Assembly: GCA_029246505.1 (NCBI GenBank)
Contig: JAQWNC010000014.1
Coordinates: 1 to 64,000 of the forward strand
Reading direction: 5' to 3'
From: Arenicellaceae bacterium
GTDB lineage: Bacteria; Pseudomonadota; Gammaproteobacteria; Arenicellales; Arenicellaceae
DNA: 64,000 bases
The notes beneath the pieces were generated by a model. That model did not search any database. It saw only the letters and a list, made by a program, of their open reading frames with translations, and was not told where the DNA came from. The position numbers and the translations under genes were made by a program. Shown one piece after another: positions 12,891-63,134 of this stretch (the stretch's first letter is position 1; each line of letters begins with the position of its first letter).

Positions 12891-13940
12891 TTAAAGCTCA
12901 GTGGAGGACCATGAGCCCGGTGTTTCCACACAGTTATAGGGTTTTATTATCTCGCCAGGCAGCCAACCCCATGCAGAGTACTGGCTTACCGGCTGAGTAA
13001 ATATTACTGAATCAGTTACGGTCATTTCGTAATCTAATCTACTCTCATCAGCGTTTATGATAAACCGCTCATCTACGATGGCCTCAGGGCTAAGTTTTAT
13101 TCCTGCTATACCAAAGTAGCGTGCACGTATGTGCGTTGTTTTTACAACGAGGGCACCATCTTCCCAATGACCCGTGGAATAACCCATCATGGATGGAGTT
13201 ATCTCTTTTTCAGATCGATCATCAGTTAGTTGAATAATGCGTTCGAGGTCGAATTCTTCTATGCGAAGTCGAATCTGTTCCCCTTCATCAACAAATTCAA
13301 CGGGCCAGTTGTTGTCCATGGTTCTTGGCATACCCTTTGGCAGGCAACTAGTGTCGATATCGACCCGTGGGTCCCACACAGCAACCACTTCTTGACCGGC
13401 TGGCGTAAGAGGATAATCGTCTAGCCAGAAATCGCCGAGCCCGGAGGTAGCCGCTCGGCTCCAGACACGAAAAATACCGTTAGCTGTCGCTTCGGCGGCA
13501 CTAATCGCCTGCTCGCTAAATGGTTTAAGTACACGTTCGATCGTGTCCTCGGACCATCTAGGTGGTAATCCGGTATGTAGCAAAACTTCGCGGCCATCCG
13601 GCAGTAGCACATGGCTAACTTCCATAACATTTTCTTTAAATTTCGAAGGCGGGCCGGCAACCTTTACGTGGGTGCCTACAGATAATACGCCAGCGCTTAT
13701 TCCGTATCGCTCCAGCACACTCGGAGGGGTTGTCTCCATCTCCCAAAGTGCACCTCCATATTCGGCATCTGCCTGCATCCAATAGCGTACATGAGGGTGT
13801 CGCCACTGAACGCGCGTTATTTCACCCTCTACTTCGATCACCTGGTTCATATCGAAAAACGCTTGCCTGGAATGATGTGCCGAAACGCCGAGCGATGTAA
13901 TCGATATTATGAAGAGTATTACTGTCAATAGTTTGGTCAC
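12891..13940 (-). CDS. Fused DUF6152 plus GHWEDG-domain secreted protein
   Basis: A 349-residue exported protein. The signal peptide ends before HHS (22-24). Residues 22 to about 125 form a DUF6152 domain (I-E-V-E-G-E-I, HPHVRYW, W-E-M-E, V-K-V-A-G-P-P). The C-terminal half carries R-L-R-I-E-E-F and TGHWEDGALVVKT, the equivalent of the GHWDGDTLVV signature. Y-E-M-T-V-T-D-S-V-I-F-T-Q-P-V and a terminal Y-N-C-V-E follow. It thus joins in one chain the two domains that are separate genes at 2490/2897. It stands alone between relics and a divergent cytochrome b561 gene. Function unknown; periplasmic location is predicted. Confidence 0.8.
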   Translation of the reverse strand: MTKLLTVILFIISITSLGVSAHHSRQAFFDMNQVIEVEGEITRVQWRHPHVRYWMQADAEYGGALWEMETTPPSVLERYGISAGVLSVGTHVKVAGPPSKFKENVMEVSHVLLPDGREVLLHTGLPPRWSEDTIERVLKPFSEQAISAAEATANGIFRVWSRAATSGLGDFWLDDYPLTPAGQEVVAVWDPRVDIDTSCLPKGMPRTMDNNWPVEFVDEGEQIRLRIEEFDLERIIQLTDDRSEKEITPSMMGYSTGHWEDGALVVKTTHIRARYFGIAGIKLSPEAIVDERFIINADESRLDYEMTVTDSVIFTQPVSQYSAWGWLPGEIIKPYNCVETPGSWSSTEL

Positions 13941-47176: not shown

Positions 47177-48229
47177 TCAGTTTGAATTAGCGAGCACCGG
47201 CAACTGGCATTCTGTTTCGGCAAACTGATAATCAGTAACCATGAGCTTACGCCAACTCTGGTGCCAAGGAGCGGTCAAATGTCCCGGGTCCGTAAAGGTG
47301 ACGTTCAACTCGAGGGCGGCGTGTTTTTCATCATCCGCGCGGCGATATCTTTCTTCAATAGTCACTTGATTGCTTAGAGCATTTCCTCGTCCGCTAGTTA
47401 GACCGGCAAGTAGCTGCGTGGTGTTAACCACCAAGGTGTCCCCGTCATAGCGGGCAGTTGAATGGCCCCTAAGTGTGTGCTCGTCACTTGAGGCAGCTCG
47501 AGCATCCAAATAGATCAGTTTTTGACTGCTATCACCTTCTTGTTCGATTAATACGTAGTCTTCTTTCTGAGTTATACGCACTGATTGATTCGCGGCCACC
47601 CCTCGAATGTACCCTCGCACAGCACACTCTGTAAAAGCAATATCATCTGTCGCTGGATCAAAAGCTTCCTGAAGTGCCTGTCCATCCGCATTGAATTGAG
47701 GGTTCTCTCGCGGGCCACCCGAGCCCGGGGCTACTGCAAGAAAAGTTCCTGAAAGATTCGGGTGACCATCTGCAAGCGTTAAAGCCGGGATAGTTAAGTC
47801 TGGAGTTTGATCTGGTTTCGGACCCTCAAGAATACGAACCAGTGAGCCATCGATGGGATTTAATTCCAGTAATTTTCCGCCTTCTATATCTGCACGCTCG
47901 ATCAAGATCATCGGACGGCCTAAGCGAGACGCTCTACCTACAAGCCGAACATATTGACCTTCTTCCAGCATAGCGTCAGTCCATCCCCAGCGACGAAAAC
48001 CCGCTACGGCAGGTGCTGTCGCTACCCATTCACTCTCTGCACCATTTTCGTCAGTAACCGCCAAGCGAATCGTTATGTGCGGATTTCGAAAACTAAACTC
48101 TTTTACATACCCTTCGATTTCGGTCGTCTGGGAAGTATCAAAAGTAGCCGCAGCAGCATGATGTGCTTGTACAGGGTAAATTGCTGTTATTAGCAACATT
48201 ACTATAGGTAAAAATATACGAGTTTTCAT
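47177..48229 (-). CDS. Fused DUF6152 secreted protein, paralogue A
   Basis: 350 residues from ATG 48227-48229, chosen because GAGGG lies ten bases upstream and the signal peptide (cleavage at QAHHA) follows directly. HHA at 23-25 replaces the usual HHS. The N-terminal DUF6152 domain has T-E-I-E-G-Y-V, FRNPHITIRL, E-W-V-A-T-A and Y-V-R-L-V-G-R-A-S-R-L-G-R-P. A linker N-P-I-D-G-S-L follows, then H-P-N-L-S-G-T-F and the C-terminal segment STARYDGDTLVVNTTQLLAG. The closing D-P-G-H-L-T-A-P-W and a late Cys match the next gene. Together with 48328 it forms a tandem same-strand pair of diverged paralogues with a 98-base gap. Confidence 0.82.
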   Translation of the reverse strand: MKTRIFLPIVMLLITAIYPVQAHHAAAATFDTSQTTEIEGYVKEFSFRNPHITIRLAVTDENGAESEWVATAPAVAGFRRWGWTDAMLEEGQYVRLVGRASRLGRPMILIERADIEGGKLLELNPIDGSLVRILEGPKPDQTPDLTIPALTLADGHPNLSGTFLAVAPGSGGPRENPQFNADGQALQEAFDPATDDIAFTECAVRGYIRGVAANQSVRITQKEDYVLIEQEGDSSQKLIYLDARAASSDEHTLRGHSTARYDGDTLVVNTTQLLAGLTSGRGNALSNQVTIEERYRRADDEKHAALELNVTFTDPGHLTAPWHQSWRKLMVTDYQFAETECQLPVLANSN

Positions 48230-48327
48230 TATGGCCCTCATTAACTGGATTAACTGTTGCGGTGTGTTTTGCATGTGAATATTAGCGATAATTTAAGTAA
48301 AGCCTACGCCTGCGAGAAGCGTAGTAC

Positions 48328-49365
48328 TTAATTAGTCAATGGTTTCTTACATTCAACTTCAATAAATTCATAATCGTTCTCAGCGTATTTGCTCCAACTA
48401 ATAGTCCATGGCGTTAGTAGATAGCCCGGATCAGTAGCCAGCATATCAGATCTTAGTACGGCGCGGCCATTTGACTCATCTTGTCGATAGTAAGTTTCTA
48501 CGGTAGTGGTTTGGTCTGTTAACGGGTTGCCGGTGGTAGCAGACAAGTTTGGTAACAGGTATGAGGACTCAATAACTAGTTTTTGTCCCTCGTAGTGCGC
48601 TATCGACTGACCGAGATGTGTGTGCTCTCCGCCGACCAAATCACGATCGTCAAAGTAGATGGTGCGCAAACCAGCGTACTCCTCATAGGTAATAACGACA
48701 TGGTCATCATATTGTTCAATTCGAACAGGGTGAGGACTAAAGCCTGCTTGACGAACTAACCCGGGCGGTTCGCATTGAACTTGAGGATCATTAACCGGAT
48801 CAAATTCAGCCTGAAGTGCTGCGCCAATTTCGTTGTAATCCATTGGGGGAACATGCAAAATCGGCCGTCCTACTCTGCCAGTAGCCTCACCTGTCCATGC
48901 ACCTGAGATGTTTGGTAAGCCATTTGCTAGCTGCAATGGCATGTCGAAAACCCCGGCATTTTCAGCTCTGGCTTTACCAGGCGTGCCAATAATCTCGCCA
49001 GTGCTAGGGTCGACGAAATTAATGCTATCGGACTCCTGCATGGATACCATTGGCGAGCCATTACGTGTCGATTCACCCGTAATTCGAATGTAATCTCCCT
49101 CTACAAGGGTATCTTTATTCCACCCGTTTCTGCGCAAGGTGGTTGCTGAGCCGCCTTCGGCTAACCATTGCGTTTCTTCACCGTTTTCATCGGTTACATT
49201 GAAGTAAACGATGACGTGCGGATTGCTATATTTCAATCGTTCTACAGTTCCTTCGACGGTAATAATCTGGTCGCTAAAGGTTGCTGCAAACGAATGGTGT
49301 GCGTAAGTTGGAGCAACACTGAAGGCGATAATTAGGAGTACACTAAATCTAACAATATTTAACAT
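48328..49365 (-). CDS. Fused DUF6152 secreted protein, paralogue B
   Basis: 345 residues with a signal peptide (YAHHS, HHS at 23-25). The DUF6152 domain has I-T-V-E-G-T-V-E-R-L-K-Y-S-N-P-H-V, E-T-Q-W-L-A-E-G and Y-I-R-I-T-G-E-S-T-R-N-G-S-P. Then come N-G-L-P-N-I-S-G-A-W-T-G and the variant signature SIAHYEGQKLVIESSYLLPN. It ends A-T-D-P-G-Y-L-L-T-P-W and E-V-E-C-K-K. Paralogue A is downstream. The upstream divergent gene is a YeeE/YedE transporter. Function unknown; no catalytic motif identified. Confidence 0.82.
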   Translation of the reverse strand: MLNIVRFSVLLIIAFSVAPTYAHHSFAATFSDQIITVEGTVERLKYSNPHVIVYFNVTDENGEETQWLAEGGSATTLRRNGWNKDTLVEGDYIRITGESTRNGSPMVSMQESDSINFVDPSTGEIIGTPGKARAENAGVFDMPLQLANGLPNISGAWTGEATGRVGRPILHVPPMDYNEIGAALQAEFDPVNDPQVQCEPPGLVRQAGFSPHPVRIEQYDDHVVITYEEYAGLRTIYFDDRDLVGGEHTHLGQSIAHYEGQKLVIESSYLLPNLSATTGNPLTDQTTTVETYYRQDESNGRAVLRSDMLATDPGYLLTPWTISWSKYAENDYEFIEVECKKPLTN

Positions 49366-57321: not shown

Positions 57322-58287
57322 GTGGCAAATTATCGTCTTACCATGTTGATTGGACAGTTGCATAGAGCAGTAACTAGCGGCATACCCTTAGTGGTTGTAG
57401 GGTTGTTTTCGATTCAACCTGTATATGCACAAAGTAGCAGTCTGGGAGGATTTGATGACTCAGTCTGTCCAGATAACGCATATGCGGTATTTCATCAGTG
57501 CGCCCTTGAGGCGGCGAAAACCGCGGATCCGCCGCGTACACTAGGGGGGCGGCCTGATTTTTCAGGTAACTGGCTTCGCCGTGCATGGGCATTTGAAGAT
57601 TTTGAGGCGCACCCCAAGAATCCTGATGATTTTGGTGGGCCCAGTGCAATCGTTGATCCGGTAGATGGTAAATATCCATTGCAACTCTGGGCGATAGCAG
57701 TCAATCAAAAGAATATTGATGCATATATTCATCAAAATGCAGCCTGCTTTCTATCTGGTCCCGCCGGCACGATGTATATGACGAGCCGCTTTACGTTTCT
57801 ACAAGATGATCAACATATCGTCATGATTGGAGAGCAACTAAACCCACACCCATCGAGAATAATACCGGTGGATGGGCGGCCGCATATTGGTGATATTTCG
57901 CTTTGGAATGGCGATTCACGAGGCCATTGGGATGGTGATACATTGGTTATTGAATCACCTAATCATAATGCCAAATATTTTCTCGACCAGCGTGGTCGTT
58001 TTATCACCGATGAAGCGCATATCGTTGAACGTATGACTTGGATAGATAGCAACACTATTCACTATTCGGCGACCTTCGATGATGCAAACGTTTTTACTCA
58101 GCCTTTTACAATAGCGTTTGCTTTCCGAAGGAATACCATAGATGAAGGTGAAATCTGGGAAGAAGCGTGCTTCGAAACCAATGGGGACCCAATGAAACTG
58201 TATCGAAGTACCGGTAAAAAAGTGTTTTCGGGTATAAGCGGCGCAGAAGCTAGAGAACTCAAGGCAGCATGGGAGGCATCACAATAA
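57322..58287 (+). CDS. Secreted GHWDGD-type protein, operon gene 1
   Basis: 321 residues from a GTG start with GGAGGA upstream. A signal peptide runs to about VYAQS (residue 38). The mature part has L-G-G-R-P-D-F-S-G-N-W at 74-84, the R-I-I-P-V-D-G-R-P-H segment (179-188) and the full signature GDSRGHWDGDTLVIESPNH at 197-215. V-E-R-M-T-W-I-D-S-N-T-I-H-Y and F-T-Q-P-F-T-I follow. The same order of motifs occurs in the genes at 2897 and 58692. No catalytic residues are established. The stop codon overlaps the ATG of the DUF6152 gene by one base, so they are coupled. Confidence 0.82.
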   Translation: MANYRLTMLIGQLHRAVTSGIPLVVVGLFSIQPVYAQSSSLGGFDDSVCPDNAYAVFHQCALEAAKTADPPRTLGGRPDFSGNWLRRAWAFEDFEAHPKNPDDFGGPSAIVDPVDGKYPLQLWAIAVNQKNIDAYIHQNAACFLSGPAGTMYMTSRFTFLQDDQHIVMIGEQLNPHPSRIIPVDGRPHIGDISLWNGDSRGHWDGDTLVIESPNHNAKYFLDQRGRFITDEAHIVERMTWIDSNTIHYSATFDDANVFTQPFTIAFAFRRNTIDEGEIWEEACFETNGDPMKLYRSTGKKVFSGISGAEARELKAAWEASQ

Positions 58288-58691
58288 TGAAGGCGAAAGT
58301 TTATTTGGGCCGCACAATTCTAGCTATATTGGTAACCATGGTTTCGACTTCGATGGCACTTGGGCATCATTCTGTGGCTGCTAGTTTCGACATGAGCGAA
58401 GAGACTATTGTTAGCGGCACAGTTAAAAGCATTGAATGGATTAATCCACATGCCAGAGTTTTTTTAGACGTCATCAATGCAGAGAACGAATTCGAAGTAT
58501 GGACCGCTTGGCTTAGCGGGGCAAATATGTTGCTTCGAAGGGGGTGGGGCTCTAGCGATTTGCCGATTGGGGAACCCATCACAGTCAATGGGTTTCGCGC
58601 TCGAAATGGTTCTAATGAAATGTACGGTGGCAAAATCAGGCTTCTCGATGGTCGAACATTGTTTTCAGGGGTGCCATCGGATGAACGATAA
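58287..58691 (+). CDS. DUF6152 family secreted protein, operon gene 2
   Basis: 134 residues from ATG 58287, which shares a base with the upstream TAA and has GGGAGG about ten bases before it. The signal peptide ends before HHS (27-29). Domain text: E-T-I-V-S-G-T-V-K-S-I-E-W-I-N-P-H-A-R-V-F-L, E-V-W-T-A-W-L-S-G, NMLLRRGWGSSDLPIGEPIT and V-N-G-F-R-A-R-N-G-S-N-E-M. It sits between two GHWDGD-type genes, and the next gene begins at the base after its stop. A role as the small partner of both neighbours is inferred. Confidence 0.85.
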   Translation: MKAKVYLGRTILAILVTMVSTSMALGHHSVAASFDMSEETIVSGTVKSIEWINPHARVFLDVINAENEFEVWTAWLSGANMLLRRGWGSSDLPIGEPITVNGFRARNGSNEMYGGKIRLLDGRTLFSGVPSDER

Positions 58692-59447
58692 ATGACTCGC
58701 TTACTATCAGTGTTAATAGGCGCTTTGCTTCTAGCGGCATCAATAATCAATTTTGCACAGGAGTCTGCGACTAATGAAATTTTTCGTATGCCCGATGGTA
58801 CTCCTGACCTACGCGGGATTTGGCAAACCGTTAACACCGCAGTTTGGAATATTCAGGATCATACTGGTGAGTTGGGAACTCCAGCCGGGCAGGGCGTAGT
58901 AGAAGGCAATACTCTGCCCTATTTGCCATCGGCTCTTGAGCAGCGCCAGAAAAACTATGAAAATCGTCTGACGGAAGACCCTGAAGCGAATTGCCTTATG
59001 GTGGGCGTACCCCGTATTACCTATATGCCGTACCCATTTCAAATCGCTCAGAACGAGAATCAATTAATTATGCTGTATGAGTATGTGCACACGGTTCGTA
59101 ATATTCATCTAAATACAGAGCACCCTGCTGGCGCAATTCAGTGGTGGATGGGTGATTCGCGAGCAGTATGGGATAACGATACTTTGGTTGTGGATGTGAC
59201 AAAATTTAACGATAAAACCTGGTTTGATCGTAGTGGTAACTTTCATAGCGAAGAATTGCATGTGGTGGAACGTTATACACCCATCGGCCCTAATCACATG
59301 AACTATGAAGCGACTATCACAGATCCTAAAGTGTTTTCGGAGTCTTGGACAATGAGTATGCCGTTATATCGGCGCCAGGAAAGCAATATGGTATTATTGG
59401 AATACGAGTGCTATGCATATATGGAAGAGGCGCGGGACGCTCAGTAG
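58692..59447 (+). CDS. Secreted GHWDGD-type protein, operon gene 3
   Basis: 251 residues with a signal peptide (INFAQE). M-P-D-G-T-P-D-L-R-G-I-W (33-44) is the equivalent of G-R-P-D-F-S-G-N-W in gene 1. N-C-L-M-V-G-V-P-R-I and P-F-Q-I-A-Q-N-E-N-Q-L follow. The signature appears as GDSRAVWDNDTLVVDVTKF with His replaced by Val. It then reads H-V-V-E-R-Y-T-P and L-L-E-Y-E-C-Y. It starts immediately after the DUF6152 stop. Its last 122 bases overlap the oppositely read gene at 59326. Confidence 0.82.
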   Translation: MTRLLSVLIGALLLAASIINFAQESATNEIFRMPDGTPDLRGIWQTVNTAVWNIQDHTGELGTPAGQGVVEGNTLPYLPSALEQRQKNYENRLTEDPEANCLMVGVPRITYMPYPFQIAQNENQLIMLYEYVHTVRNIHLNTEHPAGAIQWWMGDSRAVWDNDTLVVDVTKFNDKTWFDRSGNFHSEELHVVERYTPIGPNHMNYEATITDPKVFSESWTMSMPLYRRQESNMVLLEYECYAYMEEARDAQ

Positions 59448-59862
59448 GCTCCCGCTGTAGCTTAAACAGGTTTCTTATATTGTGCTCATATCGGTAGCGG
59501 TCTACAGGGTGCTCAAGAGCACGCACGTATAGAGCCCTATCGTCGTAGGGGCTTGGGTTCACAGTAACAAGTATCTTGTCACCTGGTTTAAGAGTAGTTC
59601 GGGTAAAACCAAGATCAGCGAGTTCCCACCGATTATCCATTTCAAGAGTCCATAAATCAGCATCGGTCTCAACAGACGGGTCCATTGAGCTATTGAGGAT
59701 TTGAGCAATGATAAAGGGGTGTGGGTTGATGAACCGGAACTCAACTACTTCCATCTCGAAAGTGGTTCGGGTCTGTTCGTCGTACATGTCTACAACCCAA
59801 TGATGTCCATTGGCGTATACGCTCCAAAACAGGGTGATTAAAACAATATAAAGTCGGAACAT
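59326..59862 (-). CDS. Solo DUF6152-like protein with a 3' overlap
   Basis: 178 residues. The signal peptide ends before HHW (20-22), replacing HHS. E-M-E-V-V-E-F-R-F-I-N-P-H-P-F-I-I, W-T-L-E-M-D-N-R-W-E-L and KPGDKILVTVNPSPYDDRAL fit DUF6152. The domain is complete by about residue 140 (Y-V-R-A-L-E-H-P-V and R-N-L-F-K-L). The remaining forty residues lie within the end of the opposite gene (59326-59447), have no family resemblance and probably result from loss of the original stop codon. Confidence 0.7.
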   Translation of the reverse strand: MFRLYIVLITLFWSVYANGHHWVVDMYDEQTRTTFEMEVVEFRFINPHPFIIAQILNSSMDPSVETDADLWTLEMDNRWELADLGFTRTTLKPGDKILVTVNPSPYDDRALYVRALEHPVDRYRYEHNIRNLFKLQREPTERPAPLPYMHSTRIPIIPYCFPGADITAYSLSKTPKTL

Positions 59863-59986: not shown

Positions 59987-60796
59987 TTAGGCGGGTTTTT
60001 TCAACCTAAGTAAAAAGCGATCTGTATTTCGTTCCAGTGATTCATCACGCATATGCAATGTACGATTGTCATTTGGGTTATGTAGCAAGTCAGATTCAGC
60101 ATCTATTTCAAAGCCTGCATCCGTGGCAAGTTGTTTTGCTATAACTGGATCCATACGGTGCAAGCTATTATTTTCTAGACCAGGATTACCGGCATGGTCA
60201 ATAACGCCGAAGACACCACCGGGTTTAAGAACTTTATAGATATTTTGTAGAAAAATAGTGGCACCTTTACTGCCACTATTTATGTAAATGTCATGCAGAT
60301 TCAATGCCGTTAATGCTACATCCATTTGCCCAGTATACGAACTCATTGAATAATTTAAAGTCCCTAAATCGACGGGTAGTTCGGTCTTTCCAGTACCCTC
60401 GCCAGCATCCGATGCCGCTAGGTCTGCAACCAATATCTCCATATTGCTTAAGCGATCAAGGCGACCTTTCAGGTCCTTAGAGTTTTGACCTTCGCGCATG
60501 GTTAAGATGCGATCCGTATTATGTGATATTACTTTGCCATTTGGCCCGACCGCAGCAGAAAGGACTTCCGTGTAGAAGCCACCACCAGCGATCACGTCGA
60601 TAACACTCATGCCAGATTCAATTCCAAGAAAGTCAATCACCTGAGCTGGTTTGCGAGCGGCATCACGTCCTTTATCGGTAGTGGGTCGATCAGCGGAATC
60701 GAGTCCTGCCTGAAAGCCAGCATCAGCCGCGTAAGTTAATGTCGCTACAAGCATCAATCCGCCAAGCAGGGCAATGGTTTTTAATTTAGTAATCAT
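59987..60796 (-). CDS. Exported SAM-dependent methyltransferase-like protein 1
   Basis: 269 residues with a clear signal peptide (TIALLGGLMLVATLTYAADA, cleavage near 24). A Rossmann methyltransferase fold follows: R-P-A/D-x-x-K-G-R-D-A-A-R-K-P-A-Q-V-I-D-F-L, motif I variant V-I-D-V-I-A-G-G-G-F-Y-T-E-V-L (65-79), TALNLHDIYINSGSKGATIF and VLKPGGVFGVIDHAGNPG. The family is the predicted methyltransferases of COG4798 type. Motif I lacks the usual acidic-Gly-x-Gly-x-Gly. SAM is cytoplasmic, so a secreted methyltransferase fold may have lost or changed its activity. A second exported one lies upstream on the same strand. Confidence 0.82.
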   Translation of the reverse strand: MITKLKTIALLGGLMLVATLTYAADAGFQAGLDSADRPTTDKGRDAARKPAQVIDFLGIESGMSVIDVIAGGGFYTEVLSAAVGPNGKVISHNTDRILTMREGQNSKDLKGRLDRLSNMEILVADLAASDAGEGTGKTELPVDLGTLNYSMSSYTGQMDVALTALNLHDIYINSGSKGATIFLQNIYKVLKPGGVFGVIDHAGNPGLENNSLHRMDPVIAKQLATDAGFEIDAESDLLHNPNDNRTLHMRDESLERNTDRFLLRLKKPA

Positions 60797-60937
60797 TGAA
60801 ATTTACTCCTCTATTGAATGAAAATAACTGAAAAGCTATATGCGCAAGCCACTATGTGAAAAGCACGGTAAGATCGGTTCAGCGTTTGGTTTAGGTAATT
60901 CTGAGTTGAGTTTCTTTAGTCAAGTACAATATTCGTA

Positions 60938-61669
60938 CTAAGACGCAGATATCATGAATTGATAGGGAAGAAGCTCATAATTAACGTCAATATTTTGGAA
61001 CCCGGCAGCGCGAAGCTCGTTTACTACGGTTTCTGCATCCAGTTTCATACTTACCGGAGGCCCAACAGGTAATTCCCGCTTTTCGAAATCAATAACCATA
61101 AGTTTTCCGCCAGGTTTTATACCGGCTCGTACCGCTGAAAAATAATTTTCTCGATCTTTAATATGATGGTAGGTATCAACAATTAGAACTATGTCAGCTT
61201 CTTCTGCACTTAAGTTTGCTGAATCGTAGGGTACAAGACGCAGTTCCATTTTATCGGTTAAGCCTAAACGGTCTCTTTTTTCTTTAATAAAACCTAAAAA
61301 GCGCTCATCAACATCGGCGCAAATAACACTGGCACCAGCATCTACCAACTTGAAACTGAAATACCCGGTTCCACTTCCAATATCCATAACGGTTTTTCCC
61401 GCTAGGTCACCTAGCGCTGCAATCGCATCTGCTGGTTTTTGCCAAATCGCTCGATCTGGTGAATCGAAATTAGCTGCCAAGTCCTCAAAAGGAGCTTCAT
61501 TCATATGTGCATTGGCATCTTTCATGTGCGCATTGGAATGATTTTGCGGGCCATGCTCACCTTCATGGGCTAATGAAGCACCACTTAGGATCGAAATCAG
61601 TGAAACTGCTAGCAAGTGATTTATGCTCAATTTGAACTGGTGAGCAACTGTATTTTGAATATTCATCAT
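60938..61669 (-). CDS. Exported SAM-dependent methyltransferase-like protein 2
   Basis: 243 residues. The signal segment SINHLLAVSLISILSGASLA is followed by a His/Met-rich stretch at 35-57 (H-E-G-E-H-G, N-H-S-N-A-H-M, N-A-H-M) that could bind metal. The Rossmann methyltransferase domain has motif I M-D-I-G-S-G-T-G-Y-F-S (95-105), D-V-D-E-R-F-L-G-F-I (119-128), IVLIVDTYHHIKDRENYF-like text and KPGGKLMVIDFEKRELPVGP. Unlike gene 1, motif I is canonical, so SAM binding is plausible. A gap of 141 bases separates the two genes. What SAM source it would have outside the cytoplasm is unclear. Confidence 0.82.
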   Translation of the reverse strand: MMNIQNTVAHQFKLSINHLLAVSLISILSGASLAHEGEHGPQNHSNAHMKDANAHMNEAPFEDLAANFDSPDRAIWQKPADAIAALGDLAGKTVMDIGSGTGYFSFKLVDAGASVICADVDERFLGFIKEKRDRLGLTDKMELRLVPYDSANLSAEEADIVLIVDTYHHIKDRENYFSAVRAGIKPGGKLMVIDFEKRELPVGPPVSMKLDAETVVNELRAAGFQNIDVNYELLPYQFMISAS

Positions 61670-61808: not shown

Positions 61809-63134
61809 ATGAGGAAACTAGTAGGTAAAGGATCATTTGGGCTATGGACATTGGTCGCGCTAGTCGTCGGAAACGCGATCGGTGCTGGCATTTACACAAC
61901 GTCCGGATTCGCGCTTGCTGATCTTGGTTCGCGTGAATGGGTGCTCCTTGCTTGGGCAGTGGGCGGCATTATTGCACTAACCGGCGCCATTAGTTACGGG
62001 ATGTTAGCAGAGAGGCTTACGGAGTCTGGGGGAGAGTTTCTATACCTAACTCGTTCAATCCATCCCTTCGCTGGTTTTATTGCAGGATGGATATCGCTAC
62101 TAGCAGGTTTCTCAGGCGCTATTGCGTTTGCAGCGACGACCTTTGAGGTTTACTTACAATCCGCGATTCCTTCACTTAGCTTTTTTCCTGCTGATTTACT
62201 TGCCGTTGCAGCCATTTTATTTGCAGGATTGATTCACGTTGTACGTGTCGATACCGGCACCACTATTCATAACCTTATTGTCGGCGTTATGGTGTTAGCT
62301 CTTGTGTATGTTTGCCTATTTGCCGGTATTGGACTAATCAGTGAAAGTTGGTCGCCATCGGCCGCAGGTTCCTACACCGAGAGTTTTAACGTGAGCGCAT
62401 TTGCTAGCAGTCTGGTTTGGATATCATTGAGCTATTCAGGTTTTAATGCGGCAGTTTATGTTGCTGGAGAGGCGAGTAATGCTAAGCTTAATGTGCCCAG
62501 CAGTATGATTATTGGAACCCTTATTATTATTGTTCTATATGTCGCGGTTAATGCTGTTTTACTTTACGCACCGTTACCTGGGGACATCGTTGGGCAGGCG
62601 AAATTTGCAGCAATTGCAGCTCATTCTCTGGGGGGTGAAACACTTGGAATATTCATTGAAATTATTGTTGCGATATCTTTGCTGACGTCAGTTACCGCTA
62701 TGGTTCTGGCAGGGCCGCGGGTCTACGCAAAAATGGCCGAAGAAGGGGTAATGCCAAGGTTGTTGCGCTTTAAGAAAGGTGCTCCGCCGCACACTGCAAT
62801 AATACTTCAAGTCATTGTCGCCGTTGCCATAACCTTAATCTCTGAGCTTAGAGAGTTGCTTTCGTATTTGAGTTTTACCTTATCAATATCGTTGGCATTA
62901 ACCGTTTCGACATTGTTCGTAAGACATATTCAGCTTGGAGAGCGGCCTAATTCAAAATTGTATCCAATTGCGCCTTTACTGTTTGTGGTGGCAACCCTCT
63001 GGTTTGCATATTTATCCTCGAGATCGAACCAATCTCAGCTTATCGCTTTTTTGGTAACGATTGCCATCGGGGCCATCGCTTATTTGGGCACAAGATTATC
63101 CGGGCCATCGCCCGATAAAAAAGATATTGCTTGA
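61809..63134 (+). CDS. APC family amino-acid permease
   Basis: 441 residues and about twelve helices. The opening GLWTLVALVVGNAIGAGIYT carries the amino-acid-polyamine-organocation G-x-G-I-x-x signature in helix 1. SGGEFLYLTRSIHPFAGFIA and YSGFNAAVYVAGEASNAKLN are the usual helix 2-3 and helix 6 features. RVYAKMAEEGVMPRLLRFKK is the conserved cytoplasmic loop after helix 8. Substrate cannot be told. It stands alone, divergent from the second exported methyltransferase. Confidence 0.9.
   Translation: MRKLVGKGSFGLWTLVALVVGNAIGAGIYTTSGFALADLGSREWVLLAWAVGGIIALTGAISYGMLAERLTESGGEFLYLTRSIHPFAGFIAGWISLLAGFSGAIAFAATTFEVYLQSAIPSLSFFPADLLAVAAILFAGLIHVVRVDTGTTIHNLIVGVMVLALVYVCLFAGIGLISESWSPSAAGSYTESFNVSAFASSLVWISLSYSGFNAAVYVAGEASNAKLNVPSSMIIGTLIIIVLYVAVNAVLLYAPLPGDIVGQAKFAAIAAHSLGGETLGIFIEIIVAISLLTSVTAMVLAGPRVYAKMAEEGVMPRLLRFKKGAPPHTAIILQVIVAVAITLISELRELLSYLSFTLSISLALTVSTLFVRHIQLGERPNSKLYPIAPLLFVVATLWFAYLSSRSNQSQLIAFLVTIAIGAIAYLGTRLSGPSPDKKDIA

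Follow-up and report, generated by a model that had tools for sequence, protein, structure and literature searches.

Introduction

Many bacteria have annotated exported methyltransferases, and SAM is made in the cytoplasm. To our knowledge, no route of SAM to the periplasm has been established. The open-access literature, to which the search was confined, yielded no report of a pairing between exported methyltransferases and permeases or of a periplasmic SAM supply. The plant SAM carrier SAMT1 is of the mitochondrial-carrier type and is not known to be related to the APC family. SAMT1 exchanges SAM and SAH into another compartment, serving plastids (PMC4158793), while yeast Sam3 and Candida Gap4 are SAM carriers of the amino-acid permease type (PMC5177730).

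The window analysed here is the whole stretch of 64,000 nucleotides from an Arenicellaceae bacterium. Near its end, two exported proteins with a methyltransferase fold, termed A and B, are encoded beside an APC permease that is considered as a candidate SAM/SAH exchanger.

Organisation of the locus

The ORFs of A (59987-60796, 269 aa) and B (60938-61669, 243 aa) adjoin each other on the minus strand with 141 bp between them. ORF, fold and family comparison characterise A as an exported protein with a class I methyltransferase fold and a family-specific motif I, with weak Pfam matches to PCMT/UbiE. B can be considered as an exported class I methyltransferase with intact SAM motifs, based on its ORF, its Pfam match (Methyltransf_12, 1.5e-14), its fold and its residues. 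The permease (61809-63134, plus strand, 441 aa) matches the Pfam model AA_permease_2 from position 1 to 423 of 427 (7.5e-43), and its nearest solved structures are y+LAT2 and y+LAT1. It is divergent from B with a start-to-start distance of 139 bp and, the pair being divergent, the link between permease and B in the window is weaker than an operon. A scan for promoters and terminators gave no more sites than shuffled sequence.

DUF6152 genes are indeed present near A and B, as the first-pass annotation had stated; the Pfam match was obtained for 58269-58691 and 59326-59862. Together with 12891-13940, 47177-48274 and 48328-49365, which are similar by eye only, they form a set of HH-type exported proteins spread across the window. 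The DUF6152 cluster was rejected as functional partner, since it was not a recurrent neighbour of A and B relatives in 20 regions, whereas the permease pairing recurred.

Export leaders

The leader of A comprises 23 residues (60728-60796, minus strand), namely MITKLKTIALLGGLMLVATLTYA, which ends in TLTYA and is followed by AD. That of B comprises 34 residues (61568-61669, minus strand), namely MMNIQNTVAHQFKLSINHLLAVSLISILSGASLA, which ends in GASLA and is followed by HE. The peak hydropathy of the N-terminus over 10 residues was 2.68 for A and 2.86 for B, compared to -0.24 to 1.91 for six other methyltransferase-like proteins of the same genome. The signal peptides read by the first-pass annotation are thus upheld by high N-terminal hydropathy; the cleavage sites, on the other hand, were judged by eye, and export was judged from hydropathy and leader conservation rather than by a trained signal-peptide predictor.

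Start sites beyond the leaders had been named as a possible objection. For A, a Shine-Dalgarno sequence, GAGGAG, was read at 60806-60811 (minus strand), 9 nt upstream of the annotated ATG at 60796, and a start downstream of the leader is therefore unlikely. B has no clear Shine-Dalgarno sequence; the first in-frame Met after its start is found at residue 49.

Leaders were also found on B's same-genus orthologue (genome G020), on its Methylosinus homologue and throughout the families of both A and B. Among B relatives above 60 bits, a leader was present in 9/10, a count biased towards export because the start codons of relatives were picked by a rule favouring a hydrophobic N-terminus; the remaining one (L071) looked cytoplasmic by eye. 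The start of L002 is internal and was set by eye. The survey was carried out without the window loci L001 and L003, without the B-type loci L040 and L041 in family A and without B relatives below 60 bits (L004-L006, L039, L044, L060). As judged from these sequences, export is a trait of both families and not of the window alone. The initial claim of two exported proteins with methyltransferase folds was borne out by the leaders in the window, on B's orthologue and in both families, together with the predicted folds.

Fold and SAM site of protein B

The AlphaFold2 model of B (mean pLDDT 81.8, pTM 0.73) has a class I methyltransferase fold. Its best solved match is the SAM-dependent methyltransferase 3dh0 with a VIA Z score of 24.7 and an rmsd of 2.1 over 185 aligned residues, and Foldseek also placed it closest to 3dh0. 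The canonical motif I described earlier, D96-I-G-S-G-T-G102, is present at 61364-61384 (minus strand), and the acidic residue of motif II is D119 (61313-61315, minus strand). D96, G98, G100, G102 and D119 occur in 11/11 aligned relatives, corresponding to DxGxGxG in motif I and an acidic motif II.

The mature protein starts with a segment rich in His and Met (HEGEHGPQNHSNAHMKDANAHMNEAP; 61490-61567, minus strand), which is as real as first described. Its His richness is shared with the G020 orthologue and with Methylosinus (MEHGGKGDRHGDH), while the other residues vary, and it is absent from most distant relatives. A metal-binding tail was set aside as key feature of B, since the His richness is limited to close kin; the tail may nonetheless have a role with metals.

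It is quite unlikely that the exported proteins are no longer methyltransferases, with A possibly binding a nucleoside-like ligand and B a metal via its His-rich tail. The presence of this tail in 3/3 close kin would fit such a role for B, but the full conservation of its five SAM residues speaks against it, and the PCMTs found as permease partners (see below) are canonical enzymes. The proposal that B binds a metal or another ligand instead of SAM found no support, given these residues and a neighbouring permease of the kind that accompanies methyltransferases. As permeases of this kind recur beside exported methyltransferases, the neighbour is a possible SAM supply for B, and the premise that the periplasm holds no SAM may be wrong.

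Close kin of B are rare. They were found in 2/21 genomes of the host's family (its own and G020, with 72% identity), in 2/109 genomes of the order, in 5/274 of the class (1e-20) and in 6/398 of the phylum (1e-15). A peptide-pattern search for B relatives in genome contigs gave a single distant match. In G020, the B gene adjoins a second exported methyltransferase tail to tail (L075:986-1678), and this second enzyme belongs to the type that partners the permease in the alphaproteobacterium G842 (278 bits). The G020 contig stops just upstream of B, at the position expected for the permease. In another genome (G068, L086:1240-6143), a B-type exported methyltransferase lies downstream of an RND efflux pump and a membrane-fusion protein.

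The family of protein A

A was likewise modelled with a class I methyltransferase fold (mean pLDDT 86.3, pTM 0.84). 3dh0 was again the best solved match (VIA Z 18.9, rmsd 3.1, 175 aligned residues) and the closest one according to Foldseek. Motif I of A reads D67-V-I-A-G-G-G73 (60578-60598, minus strand), exactly as first noted, but its description as degenerate has to be revised. Among 56 aligned relatives, it has the family-wide fixed form E/D-x-x-P-G-G-G-W-Y: position 67 is E in 47 and D in 9, P70 is found in 47, G71 in 53, G73 in 56, W74 in 50 and Y75 in 54. The reading of A as a decayed methyltransferase was thus rejected. A is presumably a member of the exported 'predicted methyltransferase' family COG4798, which has a signal peptide and a PGGGWY-type motif; this family name had no match in the open-access literature.

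The canonical GxGxG form of motif I is not found in A, as its first Gly is missing; position 69 holds a residue other than Gly in 56/56 among the residues counted. At the acidic position of motif II, A has N93, and D occurs in 13/56 rows, some of which are uncertainly aligned in this column. Both features would agree with a loss of methyltransferase function in A. Against this, the acidic position 67 and the glycines 71 and 73 point to a kept pocket, as do D159, H168 and D243 (56/56 each) and H201 (55/56); P50 is also invariant (56/56). Going by the alignment, the site of A appears conserved and family-specific, yet its use of SAM cannot be taken for granted.

The top Pfam match of A is PCMT with 25.9 bits at a cut-off of 20.3, but only 59/210 model positions are covered and the pimt equivalog model gave 22.4 bits at a cut-off of 159, and A was therefore rejected as a PCMT.

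A relatives are widespread. Counting its own genome each time, they occur in 18/21 genomes of the host's family (E 1e-10) and in 29/274 genomes of the class (1e-12). No permease neighbour was found for A relatives in other genomes. A second copy of A is present in the same genome on contig C8, adjoining an exported protein with a metallo-beta-lactamase fold, and this gene order is kept in both genomes of the genus (L094:4361-6421, L076:4476-6438). A-type methyltransferases with lipoprotein leaders lie beside a sulfotransferase-like gene in two further genomes (L083:5291-6897 in G091, L084:4451-6052 in G222).

Permeases paired with exported methyltransferases

Relatives of the window permease form a first clade (clade I). 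On a plasmid of Methylosinus sp. C49, a methyltransferase gene is followed by an APC permease gene with 1 nt overlap, and the permease is about 40-41% identical to that of the window. Among 41 plasmid records for B this locus ranked first, as it did in a separate search among 70 for the permease (the next one below 30% identity). In G842, an exported methyltransferase is followed by a permease after a 7 bp gap (60% identical to the window's), and in the gammaproteobacterium G156 an exported PCMT is followed by one after 20 bp (38% identical). The latter partner is a protein-repair enzyme, protein-L-isoaspartate O-methyltransferase (PCMT), and matches the family over the full domain (PF01135, 215 bits, E 1.1e-63, model positions 16-208 of 210).

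On the Methylosinus plasmid (pMSC49c, L127:7724-24162), the pair is located after feoB and a FeoC-like gene. Downstream of it follow a gene for cytochrome c, then a two-component pair and the methanobactin operon (mbnABC, mbnM, mbnF). A link of this pair to iron or copper is possible.

Searching with the permease gave three matches in 185 genomes of the host's class (1e-60), namely the window, G017 and G156, and two in 221 alphaproteobacteria (1e-30), namely G842 and G881. The G017 permease belongs to clade I (58% identical), but no methyltransferase adjoins it; its neighbours are DUF1415 and TPR proteins. No permease relatives were found in viral contigs. Starting from B-type methyltransferases, a permease was present at 3/24 loci and not found at 21/24 within the flanks examined, most of them 1.5 kb. 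These loci are the window, G020, Methylosinus, L040-L043, L070-L074 and L096-L107; L108 is the genome of L073 again.

Permeases of a second clade (clade II) are ~27% identical to clade I and are joined to another exported methyltransferase family. The G881 permease is 27% identical to that of the window and has an exported methyltransferase 25 bp downstream. Similar arrangements turned up among the plasmid control permeases in Leptolyngbya, with a 17 bp gap and a lipoprotein as methyltransferase, and in Chelatococcus, with a 189 bp gap. Searches with the G881 proteins newly revealed an Agrobacterium pair overlapping by 17 nt. In separate plasmid searches, the G881 methyltransferase gave 6 records and its permease 120. 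The best 4 of these 120 (50-68% identical) were 4/6 of the methyltransferase records, with the genes adjoining every time. On a Gloeothece plasmid, the methyltransferase type of clade II is present and no permease was found nearby.

Tree and control loci

In a tree of 19 permeases, both clades had 100/100 support. A methyltransferase neighbour as label required 2 changes on this tree, compared to a mean of 6.3 after shuffling, and 0/500 shuffles were as low. The tree thus needs two origins of the pairing. An exported methyltransferase was the neighbour of 8/9 permeases of the two clades and of 0/20 other APC permeases (Fisher p 2e-6), or 4/5 versus 0/20 (p 4e-4) when the window and the loci found with methyltransferase queries (Methylosinus, G842, Agrobacterium) are excluded; the clades were delimited after the neighbours had been seen, and these p values are descriptive and not tests. 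The two Leptolyngbya strains were counted as one. None of the 20 control loci contained a methyltransferase by annotation or tblastn. The unannotated controls L139, L144 and L152 were judged via ORFs and tblastn, and L146 ends at the permease so that one side was seen.

Exported methyltransferases are common, as are APC permeases, and their proximity could be a meaningless coincidence of neighbourhood. One clade I permease without a methyltransferase and the missing permease at most B-type loci would be in line with this. Nevertheless, chance is very improbable: the genes overlap on the same strand or are separated by 25 bp or less in 6/8 pairs, two supported clades stand against none of the controls, and two separate searches led to best matches on the same locus.

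The partner methyltransferases vary between loci even inside one permease clade, where B-type, NVxPEIN-type and PCMT partners occur. The groups are mutually dissimilar, with 0-35 bits between PCMT, B-type and DLGSGDGR-type, so that the thing they share would be the cofactor. A single private residue (T31) joins the two permease clades, which is not above control groupings, and a convergent signature was not found.

Proposed exchange of SAM and SAH

B would be exported, catalytically intact and working in the periplasm with SAM. The APC permease would let SAM out of the cytoplasm and, as an exchanger, would most likely bring SAH back in. The same arrangement would have at least two origins in two APC clades, with partner methyltransferases that differ by locus and include one PCMT. 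Protein A, likewise exported and a member of another, widespread family, would be served from this SAM pool too, provided that SAM is its cofactor. For B as an intact periplasmic SAM-dependent methyltransferase, with a permease that exports SAM and most likely returns SAH in an arrangement arisen at least twice, the chances appear to be about even.

It is the gene pairing that suggests SAM and SAH as cargo. PCMT has proteins as substrate, and SAM and SAH would therefore be its sole small molecules. Sam3 and Gap4 are a precedent for SAM as cargo of permeases of this type, as is SAMT1 for its exchange with SAH. Furthermore, y+LAT1 and y+LAT2 trade a cationic amino acid against a neutral one, and an exchange of SAM, which is cationic, for the neutral SAH would be of this kind. 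Several observations speak against the exchanger reading, namely the G017 permease of clade I without a methyltransferase, the 21/24 B-type loci and the Gloeothece plasmid where no permease was found nearby, the lack of a permease beside A relatives in other genomes, the divergent arrangement in the window and the missing sequence signature of a cargo common to both clades.

Alternatively, the permease could move the acceptor or product of the exported methyltransferase, such as an amino acid or amine, in the scavenging or modification of small molecules, with SAM arriving by leakage or another route. Amino acids are the usual APC cargo, the nearest structures are amino-acid exchangers, and the iron and methanobactin neighbourhood of the Methylosinus pair is compatible with a small-molecule substrate. 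This reading is nonetheless unlikely, considering that the partner enzymes differ within one clade, that PCMT modifies proteins and that the source of SAM would still be unexplained.

Extended beyond the window, the SAM/SAH exchange would amount to a periplasmic SAM economy, in which APC exchangers (SAM out, SAH in) serve exported methyltransferases, with at least two origins and with the enzyme swapped within a clade, even for a PCMT. This general form is put forward tentatively, and its prospects are somewhat below even. If true, the envelope of bacteria could be a site of methylation and protein repair, and a function could be assigned to an APC clade. With a named candidate transporter and several independent pairings, the question is reduced to a simple transport assay.

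Comparison with known systems

A and B share their fold with class I SAM-dependent methyltransferases (Pfam Methyltransf_11/12/25; 3dh0), and B also shares the full SAM motifs. A and B differ from them in their export leaders, and A also in its non-canonical motifs I and II. PCMT is the best Pfam match of A, and the permease partner in G156 is a true exported PCMT; A itself aligns to little of the model (59/210 positions) and lies far under the equivalog cut-off.

The APC/SLC7 exchangers y+LAT1, y+LAT2 and LAT represent the fold family of the permease and its best solved matches. In contrast to them, the window permease is bacterial and gene-paired with exported methyltransferases, with SAM and SAH as its putative cargo. 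Yeast Sam3 and Candida Gap4 are SAM-carrying permeases of the amino-acid type, as proposed for the window permease; they differ in that they import SAM into the cell (PMC5177730) and are not known to be linked to exported methyltransferases. Plant SAMT1 does the same job as that proposed here, bringing SAM into a compartment without SAM and taking SAH back (PMC4158793).
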